Shown one piece after another: positions 34,460-39,355 of a stretch of 42,481 nt of DNA. This stretch comes from Clostridia bacterium. Its GTDB lineage: Bacteria; Bacillota; Clostridia; Oscillospirales; Acutalibacteraceae. Position numbers and translations under genes: made by a program. Each line of letters begins with the position of its first letter. Positions within the stretch are counted from its first letter, which is position 1. Location: contig JAFUPA010000025.1 of NCBI GenBank assembly GCA_017481575.1, positions 1 to 42,481 on the forward strand. Reading direction: 5' to 3'. The notes below the pieces were generated by a model that saw nothing but the letters and a program-made list of their open reading frames with translations, had not been told where the DNA came from and ran no database searches.

Positions 34460-34493
34460 ACCACCGATTTCGCTGTGAAATCGGTGGTAATTT
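34460..34493. terminator. Strong bidirectional terminator between the membrane protein and hydF
   Basis: A perfect 12-bp stem (34460-34471 with 34477-34488) with a 5-nt loop is flanked by an A-run on the left and TTTTATTT on the right. It serves both convergent genes. Confidence 0.9.
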
Positions 34494-35698
34494 TATTTAT
34501 CAAGAATTTCCAAAATCTCGGGGAAGGGTTCGAGGCTTCGGCGGAGGATTGAATGCATCTGTGCGATTGCGATACCGTAATTTACAATCGGCACGCTTGC
34601 CGCCTGTGCGGCTGCAATTCTTCTCTGCATTTCCTTTTCGTTGAGCATACAGCCGCCGCAATGGACTATGAGCTTAAACTCCGAAAGGTCGTCGGGGAAG
34701 TCCCCGCCCGAGGTGAAGTGAAATTCGGGCTCGGCTTTTGAGTAATTCTTTATCCAGCCGGGCATCTTCACCGTGCCGATGTCGTTACATTGGCGGTGGT
34801 GGGTGCAACCCTCGCTTATCAGCACCTTGTCACCGTCCGTGAGCTTGCCGAGCTGTGCCGCACCGCTGACGAGTGCTTCAAGGTCACCCTTGTAGCGTGC
34901 AAAAAGAATTGAAAACGATGTCAGCATTATGTCGTCGGGTGTGTCTTTGGAAATTCTGCCGAATGCTTGCGAGTCGGTGATAACGAGCTTTGGCTTGACT
35001 GCAAGTGCCTTTAGCGTTGCGGTAAGCTCCGTGTCCTGACAGCACACGACCGCACAATTCGCATCAAGAATGTCACGGATAGTCTGCTGTTGGGGGAGTA
35101 TAAGTCTGCCCTTGGGTGCGGACTCGTCAATCGGGATAACAAGCACAACCAGATCGCCGTCTTCAATAAGGTCGGCAACGATTTGCTTTTTGTTTTCCAC
35201 ACCTTTGGAAAGCTGACCGATTTTTTCTTTGAGTTCATTTATATTTGCATTTGTGATTGCACTTATATAAATTGATTTCTCGTCCGTGTCGGGGATTTTG
35301 TCGAGCAAATCGGACTTGTTGAAAGCAACGATATACGGGATTTTTCTTTCCTCAAAAAGCTTTATCAGCTCGTTGTCGGTTTCGTCAAGACCCTTTGTGC
35401 CGTCAACAACAAGCACGGCAATGTCGGTTTTTGCAAGCACCTGCTTTGTCTTTTTGACACGCATTTCACCGAGCGTTCCCTCGTCGTCAATGCCGGGTGT
35501 GTCGATTATTACAACAGGACCGATGGGCAAAAGCTCCATTGCCTTTTTAACGGGGTCGGTCGTTGTGCCCTTGACGGATGAAACGACGGCTAACTCCTGA
35601 CCCGTTACGGCATTCACAACGCTTGACTTGCCTGCGTTTCGTTTGCCGAAAAAGCCGATATGAACTCGCTCTGCTGTTACGGTGTCGTTAAGTCCCAT
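34493..35698 (-). CDS. hydF: [FeFe]-hydrogenase H-cluster maturation GTPase HydF
   Basis: 401 aa. The GTPase domain (about residues 1-170) has GKRNAGKSS as P-loop, DTPGID as G3 and NKSDLL as G4. The C-terminal domain carries the iron-sulfur ligands: CTHH (near residue 300) and HCGGC (near residue 350), matching the CxHx(46-53)HCxxC pattern of HydF. HydF is the scaffold on which HydE and HydG build the 2Fe subcluster. It is the last gene of the hyd operon, 12 nt after hydG. Confidence 0.95.
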   Translation of the reverse strand: MGLNDTVTAERVHIGFFGKRNAGKSSVVNAVTGQELAVVSSVKGTTTDPVKKAMELLPIGPVVIIDTPGIDDEGTLGEMRVKKTKQVLAKTDIAVLVVDGTKGLDETDNELIKLFEERKIPYIVAFNKSDLLDKIPDTDEKSIYISAITNANINELKEKIGQLSKGVENKKQIVADLIEDGDLVVLVIPIDESAPKGRLILPQQQTIRDILDANCAVVCCQDTELTATLKALAVKPKLVITDSQAFGRISKDTPDDIMLTSFSILFARYKGDLEALVSGAAQLGKLTDGDKVLISEGCTHHRQCNDIGTVKMPGWIKNYSKAEPEFHFTSGGDFPDDLSEFKLIVHCGGCMLNEKEMQRRIAAAQAASVPIVNYGIAIAQMHSILRRSLEPFPEILEILDK

Positions 35699-35710: not shown

Positions 35711-37159
35711 TTAAAATCTGAAATCTCTGCGGTTAGAGTTTTTGATATCTCTGATGTTATCTTCCGCAATTTTTCTTACCTTTTCTTTCGGGATTCGTGT
35801 AAGCTCTTTTTCAATAACCTCAAATCCGGTTTTCTTAGTCTCGTCGGAGGCATAGTCCGTAAGGTATTCGGTAAGTGTCATAAGTGCGTTCGGGTGACAG
35901 CAGTTAAGAATCTGTCCGCTCTTGCAAAGGCTCATAAAGCGGTCGCCCGTTCTGCCCTCACGGTAGCAAGCCGTGCAGAAAGAGGGGATGTGACCGTTTT
36001 GCATAAGCCAATGAACAACCTCGTCAAGGGTACGCTGGTCGGAAACGTCAAACTGCTCTGTGTCGTGCGGACGTTCCTCCTGTGTGTAACCGCCGACAGA
36101 TGTTCTTGAACCGCCGCTTACCTGTGAAACACCAAGACGAAGAAGCTTTGAACGTACCTCTTCGCTCTCTCTTGTTGAAATAATAATTCCCGTGTACGGA
36201 ACAGCAAGGCGGATACAAGCGGTAATTTTTGCAAAAATCTCGTCAGAGATTGAATTGTCAAAAGCATTCGGGTCAATGTCGTCAGCGTGCTTTATTCTCG
36301 GAACGCTGATTGTGTGCGGGCCTACACCGTGAACAGCCTCAAGGTGTTCTGCGTGCATAATAAGACCGGCAAACTCGTACTTGTAAAGCTCAAGTCCGAA
36401 CAGAACGCCGAGACCGACGTCATCAATTCCGCCCTCCATAGCTCTGTCCATAGCCTCGGTATGGTAAGCGTAGTCGTGCTTCGGACCTGTCGGGTGAAGC
36501 TGAAGATAGCTTTCCTTATGATAAGTCTCCTGGAAAAGGATATATGTGCCGATGCCTGCATCCTTCAACTTGCGGTAGTTTTCAACTGTTGTTGCGGCAA
36601 TGTTTACGTTAACACGGCGGATTGCACCGTTCTTGTGGTTAACGCTGTAAATTGTATTGATACATTCAAGAATGTACTCAATCGGGTTATTTTTCGGGTC
36701 TTCGCCTGCTTCAATTGCAAGACGCTTGTGTCCCATATCCTGCAAAGCGATAACCTCTGCCTTAACCTCTTCCTGTGTGAGCTTTTTACGTGCAATGCAC
36801 TTATTCTGTCTGTGATACGGGCAGTAAACACAGCCGTTTATGCAGTAGTTGGAAAGGTAAAGCGGTGCAAAAATTACGATACGGTTGCCGTAAAATGCAA
36901 GCTTGATTTCCTCTGCAATTTTATAGATTTCTTCAATCTTTTCGGGAATGTCGCAAGCAAGAAGCACGGAAGCCTCACGGTGGGTAAGACCTGCGCATAC
37001 ATAGCCTGTTTCTGTCTTTTTCGGACGAGCTTTTTCGAGGATTTCATCAATCAGTTCAATATTATTCTTGTTTGCCTCGGCATATTCAAGAGTTGCAAGG
37101 ATTTCGCCGTCATTGATGAATTCTTCGGCTTTTAATGATTTCGGATTGTATTGAGCCAT
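35711..37159 (-). CDS. hydG: [FeFe]-hydrogenase maturase HydG (radical SAM tyrosine lyase)
   Basis: 482 aa. The radical SAM site is CINGCVYC (CxxxCxxC, near residue 110). The C-terminal cluster site is CTACYREGRTGDRFMSLC (near residue 395), which fits the C-x2-C-x(22)-C type of HydG together with a later Cys. Conserved segments such as VSGGSRTSVGGY support the call. It splits tyrosine to give the CO and CN ligands of the H-cluster. The stop lies 12 nt before hydF, and the start abuts the hydE stop. Confidence 0.95.
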   Translation of the reverse strand: MAQYNPKSLKAEEFINDGEILATLEYAEANKNNIELIDEILEKARPKKTETGYVCAGLTHREASVLLACDIPEKIEEIYKIAEEIKLAFYGNRIVIFAPLYLSNYCINGCVYCPYHRQNKCIARKKLTQEEVKAEVIALQDMGHKRLAIEAGEDPKNNPIEYILECINTIYSVNHKNGAIRRVNVNIAATTVENYRKLKDAGIGTYILFQETYHKESYLQLHPTGPKHDYAYHTEAMDRAMEGGIDDVGLGVLFGLELYKYEFAGLIMHAEHLEAVHGVGPHTISVPRIKHADDIDPNAFDNSISDEIFAKITACIRLAVPYTGIIISTRESEEVRSKLLRLGVSQVSGGSRTSVGGYTQEERPHDTEQFDVSDQRTLDEVVHWLMQNGHIPSFCTACYREGRTGDRFMSLCKSGQILNCCHPNALMTLTEYLTDYASDETKKTGFEVIEKELTRIPKEKVRKIAEDNIRDIKNSNRRDFRF

Positions 37160-38224
37160 TTATATTCCTTCTTTCTTTTTACTCTTAACATCACCACGGT
37201 CGGTCACGATTTCGTAGCCGATTGACTGCATTCTTTTTGCAAGGTTTTCCTTGCGCTGTGCAGACTCGTCACCGTCGGAGAGCTTGTTGTTGTAAAGTTC
37301 ATATTTTTTGCGGACGATACTCGGCGAAAGGTTCGGCATAACAACATTTGCTCCTGCAAGAATTCCTTTCTCACGTCCGTTCGGGTCAATTGTACCGAGT
37401 GCCGTTGTTGACGGCAAAAGCACCTCGGGGTGAATTAAGCGGATTATCGACAGCAGGTAGCAGGTAAGCTCTGCCGTGCCGCCTGTTTTGTCGGCAAATG
37501 GGGTGTCCTTATGGGGGACAAACGGGCCTATCCCACACATATCGGGCTTGAATTCCTCGACGAATTTCAAGTCCTTGGCGAGCATTGCCGTTGTCTGAAA
37601 GGGTGAGCCGACCATAAAACCGCAACCCGTTTGGAAACCTATTTTTTTGAGGGTTTTAAGGCAGTTTATTCTGTCTTCAAAGGACAGCTCCTTCGGGTGA
37701 AGCATTGCGTAGTGCTCGCTGTCAGCGGTTTCGTGCCGTAAAAGATAGCGGTCTGCACCTGTATCAAAAAGCTTTTGATAGCTTTCCTCGCTACGCTCTC
37801 CCATCGAAAGAGTAACGGCACAGTCGGGGTATCTTTGCTTGATGTCTGCAACAATTGAGCAAAGCACCTCGTCGGTGAAAAATCCGTCCTCGCCGCCCTG
37901 CATAACAAAGGTGCGGAAGCCGAGGCGATAACCCTCGTCACAGCAATCAAGAATTTGCTCGGGGGTCAGCCTGTAACGCTCGCAGTTGCGGTTGGATTTG
38001 CGTATGCCGCAGTAGTAGCAATCGTTTTTGCAGATGTTGCTGACTTCGATAAGTCCACGGATAAAAACTGCGTTGCCGTAAATCTGACGGCGGACTTTAT
38101 CTGCTTTTTCTGCAAGGATTTTTGCCGCTTCGGGAGTGCGGTTATCGATTAAATACACGTACTCTTCGACAGTCAGCGAATGGTTTTGCTCGAGCTTATC
38201 AATCAGAGATAAAAGTTTAGTCAT
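37160..38224 (-). CDS. hydE: [FeFe]-hydrogenase maturase HydE (radical SAM)
   Basis: 354 aa from the ATG at 38224, which overlaps the end of the upstream regulator gene by 8 nt. The radical SAM motif CKNDCYYC lies near residue 65, followed by a typical barrel with FVMQGGEDG, TLSMGER, and GCGFMVGSPFQT. The end of the protein, with NLSPSIVRKKYELYNNK, matches HydE. It works with HydG and HydF in building the bridging dithiomethylamine group. Confidence 0.93.
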   Translation of the reverse strand: MTKLLSLIDKLEQNHSLTVEEYVYLIDNRTPEAAKILAEKADKVRRQIYGNAVFIRGLIEVSNICKNDCYYCGIRKSNRNCERYRLTPEQILDCCDEGYRLGFRTFVMQGGEDGFFTDEVLCSIVADIKQRYPDCAVTLSMGERSEESYQKLFDTGADRYLLRHETADSEHYAMLHPKELSFEDRINCLKTLKKIGFQTGCGFMVGSPFQTTAMLAKDLKFVEEFKPDMCGIGPFVPHKDTPFADKTGGTAELTCYLLSIIRLIHPEVLLPSTTALGTIDPNGREKGILAGANVVMPNLSPSIVRKKYELYNNKLSDGDESAQRKENLAKRMQSIGYEIVTDRGDVKSKKKEGI

Positions 38225-38474
38225 TTGAAACCACACCCGAAAATGCAGTTTTAACGCTCACTCCGTCAAGTCTTCCGATTTTGCCCGAAAGAGCAGAAAT
38301 CATATCCTGCGGAGCATCGATTGCAATGCTTATTATATTGATGTTTCTTGCACGGTAGGGGATGCCCATTCTGCCGATTATATATTCGCCGTAGTCGTGC
38401 AAAATTGCGTTGAGTTTTTCAACGGTGTCGTTTTTTTCAACGATAATGCTCATAACAGCAACTCTTGTTTCCAT
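38217..38474 (-). CDS. TM1266-type hydrogenase-system regulator
   Basis: 85 aa from the ATG at 38474, which follows GGAGG. The small ferredoxin-like (ACT/NikR-C-like) fold shows as RVAVMSIIVEKNDTVEKLNAIL, YIIGRMGIPYRARNINIISIAID and the closing SALSGKIGRLDGVSVKTAF. It is the TM1266 family, usually found with hydEFG and named a putative iron-only hydrogenase regulator; its real mechanism is unknown. It is the first gene of the hyd operon, with a structured leader before it. Confidence 0.88.
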   Translation of the reverse strand: METRVAVMSIIVEKNDTVEKLNAILHDYGEYIIGRMGIPYRARNINIISIAIDAPQDMISALSGKIGRLDGVSVKTAFSGVVSND

Positions 38475-38483
38475 AATTACCTC

Positions 38484-38547
38484 CAAAAAAATTACCGCAC
38501 CCGATAAAAAGGGTGCGGCAATACCAATACAAATTTCAGCCGTCACC
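38484..38547 (-). promoter_or_regulatory. Hyd operon leader: terminator with mutually exclusive antiterminator
   Basis: On the minus strand CCGCACCC (38518-38511) pairs with GGGTGCGG (38502-38495) and seven T follow, which is a full intrinsic terminator placed before the GGAGG site. Upstream, GGTGACGGC (38547-38539) can pair with GCCGCACC (38519-38512) with one bulged A, which would remove the terminator's 5' arm. This is the classic form of an attenuator or riboswitch platform. What decides between the folds is not visible. Confidence 0.75.
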
Positions 38548-38593
38548 TTTCACTCAGAATAACTTTATGTCAGGTACAAACTTTTGTATATGT

Positions 38594-38622
38594 ATTATAC
38601 TATAATAAATTTAAAAGGTCAA
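38594..38622 (-). promoter_or_regulatory. Promoter of the hyd operon
   Basis: On the minus strand TTGACC (38622-38617) and TATAAT (38599-38594) are 17 bp apart. The transcript would start near 38587 and give a leader of about 113 nt. Confidence 0.8.
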
Positions 38623-38643: not shown

Positions 38644-39312
38644 TCAATCTTCTTTCCATTTGAAGTAAGCGTCACCTGCACCTACCTCAAAATGATATTT
38701 TGCAATGCCTAAATCTATCTTGGAATAAAAGCCGAAAAGCGTTTTTGCCTCGACTTCGTTGCCGTTCAGCGTAAAAAGAAATTTCTGCTGGTTGACGGCA
38801 GTAGGTGCAAGCATAACCGCAACCATTGCAGACTTGAACCAGTCGGGCATTTCGCCGTTTGTTACCTTGCACAGCTCGTCCATCGGCTTGCTGGGTCGGG
38901 TTTTACCCTGAGTTTGTCCATATCCGAGCGCAATTACAATCATCAGCTTTTCACCGTCGTTTGCAACATAAGTTGCCTTTGCCTTGTTAAAGGTGAGGGC
39001 AACCCAACAGGTGTTCAGTCCCAACTGCTGTGCGTGCAAAACAATCTTTTCGCCGTAATATCCGCACTTTTCGTCGTCGCCCTTTTTGCCGACTATTGCT
39101 ATGTAATTTTTACAGTTTTCAAAGTTGCCGTATTTAGCCATACCTGACCCGAAAGCCTCGGGCTCATTCAGAACAAGCTGAATGTTAAGTCCGCTTTTGC
39201 GGTTGCATTCGTCAATTGTATTCTGCAGTTCGGCGGCAGTTGCCTCGTCAATTACTTTGTCCGTAAACTTGCGGACGGAATGTCTTTCAACTATTGCTTC
39301 TCTAAGGGTCAT
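38644..39312 (-). CDS. Nitroreductase-family protein
   Basis: 222 aa from the ATG at 39312 behind AGAGGTG. FMN-binding marks are ERHSVRKF near the N-terminus, the central GEKIVLHAQQLGLNTCWVAL, and MIVIALGYGQ followed by RPSKPMDEL. It resembles the longer nitroreductase-type NAD(P)H oxidoreductases of Clostridia that act on unknown substrates. It is upstream of and separate from the hyd operon, with its own promoter. Confidence 0.88.
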   Translation of the reverse strand: MTLREAIVERHSVRKFTDKVIDEATAAELQNTIDECNRKSGLNIQLVLNEPEAFGSGMAKYGNFENCKNYIAIVGKKGDDEKCGYYGEKIVLHAQQLGLNTCWVALTFNKAKATYVANDGEKLMIVIALGYGQTQGKTRPSKPMDELCKVTNGEMPDWFKSAMVAVMLAPTAVNQQKFLFTLNGNEVEAKTLFGFYSKIDLGIAKYHFEVGAGDAYFKWKED

Positions 39313-39355
39313 TTTTTCACACCTCTTCAAGAGTAATTGCTTTGAATTTTATTTC

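Follow-up and report, generated by a model that had tools for sequence, protein, structure and literature searches.

The leader of the hydrogenase maturation operon in the window, i.e. the complete stretch of 42,481 nucleotides analysed here, carries a conserved hairpin element of ca. 36 nt which recurs upstream of these genes in many other genomes and overlaps the antiterminator strand of the leader. We are highly confident that it defines a genuine family of attenuator RNAs serving H-cluster assembly, which to the extent of our search is new. The literature covered, which includes few subscription papers, yielded no account of [FeFe]-hydrogenase maturation being controlled at the RNA level. 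A more specific reading, to which we give an even chance, is that the family switches its operons OFF when the hairpin is formed and serves as a riboswitch for a metabolite of the H-cluster pathway.

The leader of the TM1266-hydEGF operon

The operon is encoded on the minus strand in the order TM1266-hydE-hydG-hydF, as assigned by curated NCBIfam cut-offs. The first gene codes for a TM1266-family protein annotated as a putative regulator (38217–38474, ATG at 38474; TIGR03959, 118.9 bits; PF21699) and is followed by those for the radical SAM maturases HydE (37160–38224; TIGR03956, 580.3 bits) and HydG (35711–37159; TIGR03955, 914.5 bits) and for the maturation GTPase HydF (34493–35698; TIGR03918, 565.4 bits). 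The promoter is closely preceded by a gene for a TM1586-type putative nitroreductase (38644–39315), likewise on the minus strand. The window also contains a Gut-1 RNA (RF01706, 12399–12477, plus strand, 67.9 bits) and a SAM riboswitch (RF00162, 5509–5595, plus strand, 52.1 bits).

An earlier note on this DNA had described the leader as an attenuator behind a TTGACC-17-TATAAT promoter. This promoter exists on the minus strand (-35 hexamer at 38617–38622, -10 hexamer at 38594–38599, spacer of 17 nt), matches the consensus in 11 of 12 positions and ranks highest among 16 promoter-like sites between 36000 and 42481. The transcription start deduced from it lies near 38587 and defines an untranslated leader of ca. 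113 nt (38475–38587), in agreement with the length given before. A full intrinsic terminator, likewise predicted, is found ahead of the ribosome binding site GGAGG (38480–38484, recognized by eye) and consists of a stem-loop of 12 pairs, seven of them G-C, at 38522–38491 and a subsequent T-run. Promoter, leader and terminator are thereby arranged in the window as in an attenuator. A leader peptide was considered and dismissed, since inspection of the window leader by eye revealed, ahead of the terminator, no start codon that could plausibly be served by a ribosome site.

As proposed in that note, the 5′ arm of the terminator can also pair with the upstream sequence GGTGACGGC (38547–38539), which makes the two folds mutually exclusive. 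The pairing runs on to GAAAGGUGACGGC; the 5′ strand of the antiterminator, GAAAGGTGACGGC, extends over 38539–38551 and the duplex is calculated at -14.4 kcal/mol. The whole leader folds better than 200 of 200 dinucleotide shuffles (z = -3.59). After removal of the 3′ half of the terminator the optimal fold contains a 5′ hairpin and the antiterminator, and its stability is ordinary (z = -0.32, 66 of 200 shuffles being as good).

The 5′ hairpin, TACAAAAGTTTGTA (38575–38588), corresponds to the TACAAA/TTTGTA hairpin for which the note had described an alternative pairing. Both this hairpin and the second TTTGTA (38528–38533), which according to sequence and fold is able to pair with the 5′ TACAAA, are indeed present, and in close relatives having the 5′ element they are kept in some form, as judged by eye within the genus. 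They are absent from the family-wide consensus. As a candidate for the core of the element the TACAAA/TTTGTA switch was rejected; being seen only among close relatives, it looks like a lineage-specific add-on and not like a central part.

Anatomy, covariation and alternative pairing of the core hairpin

The core of the element is a different hairpin (38575–38545, minus strand) which had been overlooked in the earlier note. It is composed of the helices P1 (38575–38572/38548–38545), P2 (38569–38567/38553–38551) and P3 (38564–38563/38557–38556), reads CUGA-CAU-AAAG-loop-CUGA-GUG-AAAG and, like its counterparts in other leaders, is positioned just upstream of the terminator. Its 3′ strand doubles as the antiterminator strand, which overlaps the 3′ strand of P1; as both structures draw on this strand, they are mutually exclusive. 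In the consensus of 50 instances aligned with MAFFT, the three short helices are separated by GA-type internal loops. Comparison of the 5′ strand CUGA CAU AAAG (38563–38573) with the 3′ strand CUGA GUG AAAG (38547–38557) reveals a pronounced symmetry: both strands read YUGA-N3/4-RAAR, and the hairpin is built from a single half-site (Y-R, U-A or C-G, G·A, A·R) that is present twice in inverted orientation, with a helix of 3–4 bp between the copies. All six features of the first half-site are realized in 98 of 104 instances and at least five of the six features of the second in 83 of 104, compared to 6% with shuffled cores. P2 is fully paired in 79 of the 104 instances, in combinations including CAU/GUG, CAC/GUG, CACC/GGUG, CAUC/GAUG, CGCC/GGCG, CGUC/GACG, CGGA/UCCG and CAAA/UUUG, and by our own scoring incompletely paired in the other 25. 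The symmetry is the strongest anatomical clue to the sensor and hints at a protein or ligand that is itself symmetric, or at a ligand bound as two molecules. Tandem copies of the element inside one leader were also noticed by eye, e.g. in loci L028, L038 and L055.

The sequences were collected from regions upstream of TM1266 genes in the genus (13 of 18 genomes with TM1266), in the family (70 of 150) and on 80 named contigs, the latter being the best 80 among the matches listed. A strict sequence pattern matched 62 of these 161 loci, some of which represent one genome present in two collections. Members of alignment A2 were chosen with a pattern in which some letters of P1, P2 and P3 are prescribed, those of alignment A3 mostly with the search model, whose agreement with the 50 sequences used to train it is built in. 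When 50 sequences were aligned by sequence alone, RNAalifold, which was given no structure, predicted eight of our 11 pairs and added none. The covariation score of this set is 0.316 against 0.174 ± 0.014 for shuffled alignments (reached by 0 of 500) and falls in every slid register; for 99 sequences it amounts to 0.359 against 0.179 ± 0.010 (0 of 500), the shuffles in both cases taking no account of relatedness among the sequences. Among the 99 sequences, pair 20–31 is GC in 62, AU in 36, GU in one and never unpaired, and pair 21–30 occurs in four Watson-Crick types. Changes on both sides were found in 10 of 12 pairs, a number attained by 15 of 500 shuffles. Additional pair types are no more numerous in this larger set than in shuffles (29 versus 28.5, 248 of 500), and at the outer end of P1 two pairs do not form in 51 and 62 of the 99 sequences. 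The element thus possesses a conserved structured domain with covariation, as expected for a riboswitch.

Downstream of the hairpin, strong terminators are present in 74 of 104 leaders, whereas dinucleotide shuffles yield 1.6 per 104; of the 33 TM1266 loci devoid of the element among the best 80 named ones listed, 10 have such a terminator. A loose count of the terminator finder, 99 of 104 versus 66 in shuffles, carries no information. The hairpin 3′ strand and the terminator arm of the same leader form duplexes of -12.48 kcal/mol on average, compared to -9.88 ± 0.26 kcal/mol with permuted partners (0 of 5000), as calculated from 94 of the 104 leaders after omission of 10 whose terminator was not found or doubtful. 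As own-partner duplexes surpass exchanged ones, the exclusive pairing is kept while both partners drift. An alternative pairing that excludes the terminator is therefore conserved as a hallmark of attenuators. Homologous leaders, which the earlier note had asked to be gathered and checked for covariance, exist, covary and keep the mutually exclusive pairings; the lack of any conserved pairing, by which the note would have let its proposal fall, was not encountered, and the assignment as an attenuator-type leader is strongly supported.

The riboswitch-like coupling to an expression platform is apparently not confined to terminators. In L202 and L212 no terminator was found, and the hairpin 3′ strand, AAAGGTGG, is situated directly before hydG at the position expected for the ribosome site. 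If this strand doubles as the hydG ribosome site, the same logic would repress translation, and to judge from the sequences both platforms would be OFF when the hairpin is stabilised.

Occurrence and target genes

In its own genome (72.9% complete) the window leader is the sole match of model R1 at E ≤ 10 (38540–38581, E = 1.5e-7), as a member of the training set of this model. Within the genus, nine of 18 genomes were matched at E ≤ 4e-4, all nine belonging to the 13 with TM1266. Among the best 80 named TM1266 loci listed (458 kb, both strands, E ≤ 1), 47 have the element, 27 of them inside and 20 outside the training set, and it invariably lies on the coding strand ahead of TM1266. L101 and L150, from the culturable hosts Sporobacter termitidis and Mobilitalea sibirica, are among the loci with the element. 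Behind TM1266, hyd genes are found in 40 of these 47 loci versus 15 of the 33 others (Fisher p = 2e-4). A search of 150 family genomes gave 24 matches (E ≤ 0.01), 23 of them accompanied by TM1266 or hyd genes within the retrieved locus (seven of eight after exclusion of training members), and in 391 class genomes the same context surrounds 25 of 28 matches, one more preceding aspA (23 of 26 plus the aspA one without training members). A broader model applied to 398 phylum genomes yielded 11 matches in nine genomes at E ≤ 0.01, some of them outside the class; nine of the 11, and six of eight without training members, have a TM1266, hyd or FecCD context. Two of these genomes carry two copies each (L220 and L226 in G904, L222 and L227 in G601), ca. 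0.43–0.46 kb apart, one before TM1266 and the other before hydG or a FecCD gene. The presence of hyd genes in 15 of the 33 matchless loci and the strong match of only nine of the 13 genus genomes with TM1266 imply that the element is non-universal or diverged.

Ten matches devoid of hyd context (L185–L189, L215, L217, L218 of G546, L224 and L225) were judged from the surrounding sequence to be due to chance, most of the matches so judged lying in or across open reading frames; L190 and L191 are further model matches at which no hyd genes were found. TM1266 is missing from G298, G438, G465 and G546 (E = 0.011–0.034), i.e. from four of the 41 class genomes matched at E ≤ 0.05.

TM1266 was rejected as the only target, as the element also directly precedes hydE (L178, L204, L211), hydG (L201, L202, L209, L212, L226), hydF (L216), the aspartate ammonia-lyase gene aspA (L200) and a FecCD permease gene (L222); the target identity was profile-checked for L200, L204, L209, L216, L222 and L226. 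According to PMC11736057, aspA is known to occur next to hyd operons; its product can provide the ammonium needed for the dithiomethylamine ligand.

In a further group of loci, element and TM1266 precede transporter genes. These encode a FecCD permease with an ABC ATPase, an ECF substrate component (detected by Pfam in L085, L115 and L131; in L110 and L114, where Pfam gave no match, assigned by sequence likeness) or a permease together with an NMT1-like binding protein (L152). The ABC ATPases beside the FecCD permeases carry a TM1266-like C-terminal domain (PF21699) of their own in L145 (4265–5380) and L255 (6269–7321), and not in L257; these fusions suggest that TM1266 is a ligand-sensing domain. 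In the 12 genomes selected for this arrangement HydG was not detected above the cut-off (0 of 12); weaker matches to its profile in six of them were taken by us as ThiH-like. Three of the 12 genomes are 96–99% complete, and the absence of HydG carries less weight in the named ones, as their completeness is not given. HydF scores above its cut-off in six of the 12, all of the FecCD type, and the Fe_hyd_lg_C domain was found in 11; all three H-cluster motifs occur in seven of 15 fetched hydrogenase-domain loci.

The six genomes with HydF and no HydG above the cut-off are those of L255, L256 and L257 (G307, G530 and G060), L104, L145 and L142, and five of them encode an [FeFe]-hydrogenase domain, none having been found for the genome of L145. 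The operon in L255, L256 and L257 comprises TM1266, FecCD, the ABC ATPase, NifH-like and nitrogenase-component-1-like proteins and a Peripla_BP_2 protein, some members being named by position or likeness. In the genomes of L085, L110, L114, L115, L131 and L152, whose completeness is not stated, neither HydG nor HydF exceeds the cut-off (0 of 6). An H-cluster supply independent of HydG might be possible in the genomes with HydF and no HydG above the cut-off, and the element looks as if it reports the level of one metabolite, either made by HydEGF or obtained otherwise. The literature searched contained no description of this pattern of HydG and nitrogenase-like enzymes.

Possible signals and relation to known systems

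On this basis a scenario for the regulation can be sketched. Without signal, the hairpin 3′ strand (RAAGGU...) would pair with the 5′ arm of the terminator and transcription would continue; a signal which stabilises the hairpin would release the terminator to form and turn the operon off. Most likely, the signal might be a metabolite that is produced by the HydEGF pathway or acquired in its stead, and is bound directly by the RNA. SAM, the Fe-S state or a metal, put forward in the earlier note, may also be candidates. The set of targets, biosynthesis and transport genes, is counted in favour of such a riboswitch. Direct sensing of a small molecule seems likelier to us, with binding of TM1266 close behind. 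Tentatively, and at a clearly lower chance than an even one, the hairpin may be the binding site of TM1266, alone or liganded, which would then regulate its own operon and act in trans on other hyd leaders. Two like half-sites in a two-fold symmetric duplex are expected for a symmetric protein, and with this symmetry a protein dimer is no less fitting than a small ligand. TM1266 is moreover annotated as a putative regulator, and the TM1266-like domains joined to the ABC ATPases mentioned above suggest a ligand sensor. In 18 of the 26 class matches with hyd, TM1266 or aspA context the element is followed first by TM1266, which is encoded in 26 of 26 of the respective genomes; this co-occurrence cannot discriminate between the two readings, because TM1266 tends to accompany hyd genes anyway. 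Against TM1266 as the binding partner stands its far wider distribution in the class (240 of 391 genomes) than that of the detectable element (41 of 391, E ≤ 0.05), as well as the position of the element downstream of TM1266 in L178, L201 and L216, where TM1266 is consequently not its target. To our knowledge, no RNA binding has been reported for TM1266. The hairpin, being compact and symmetric and having internal loops rich in purines, would also be an adequate site for another RNA-binding protein, e.g. an iron or redox sensor, but TM1266, hyd, transporter and aspA genes follow the element and no other candidate regulator is found among the loci examined, which renders this option improbable. 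Very improbable, finally, is an ordinary constitutive terminator or processing hairpin devoid of regulation, whose likeness among genomes would be due to descent only. Long identical stretches are indeed common to close relatives, but the changes on both sides of most pairs, a covariation score reached by no shuffle, an exclusive pairing kept while both partners change and the placement before hydE, hydG, hydF, aspA and FecCD genes argue against it.

Within the riboswitch reading, a bolder and rather unlikely proposal concerns the ligand. The half-sites might bind a symmetric di-iron precursor of the H-cluster or two mono-iron synthons; such an organometallic precursor would shut off hydEGF and aspA and, in genomes lacking HydG, control importers and a nitrogenase-like enzyme that supply it. 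If so, parts of the H-cluster may be salvaged between bacteria. The short, defined element provides a handle on what cells sense while they assemble the H-cluster, on what the unexplained TM1266 protein does and on those genomes which combine a hydrogenase and HydF with no recognisable HydG and with the element before transporter operons. Control at the DNA level may operate in addition; for C. thermocellum, Rex sites at hydG and TM1266 are reported in PMC8457756.

The earlier note had recognised no known riboswitch class in the leader, and scans with Rfam release 15 bear this out, no family attaining its gathering threshold at the element in the window or in 40 further loci. Overlaps below threshold with PyrR (22.3 bits), STnc240 (17.5 bits) and GibS (17.2 bits) in the window leader and with L10_leader (24.8 bits) in that of L055 were rejected as chance. 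PyrR, HutP and BglG-type proteins act on the leaders of their operons, and the PyrR site is an anti-antiterminator hairpin upstream of a terminator, as is the present element. However, the PyrR site (RF00515) matches the window leader with E = 0.52, far under its gathering score of 54, has no match in the 40 other loci (E ≤ 1 or E ≤ 0.1), and the context here is hydrogenase maturation. RAT sites of the BglG/SacY/LicT antiterminators are likewise imperfect hairpins with pseudo-two-fold internal loops that overlap the terminator region; they differ from the present hairpin, which overlaps the antiterminator and thus favours termination. The Moco family has no match in the scanned leaders, whereas Moco and Wco riboswitch candidates resemble the element as leaders for complex metal cofactors, and PMC9481103 reports tandem Wco copies near a ferredoxin hydrogenase. 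In comparison with vitamin-type OFF and single-hairpin riboswitches, the symmetric hairpin of two half-sites with no Rfam match at threshold is distinctive; common to both are the position as a cis-acting leader before biosynthesis or transport genes and an aptamer strand shared with the antiterminator or the ribosome site.
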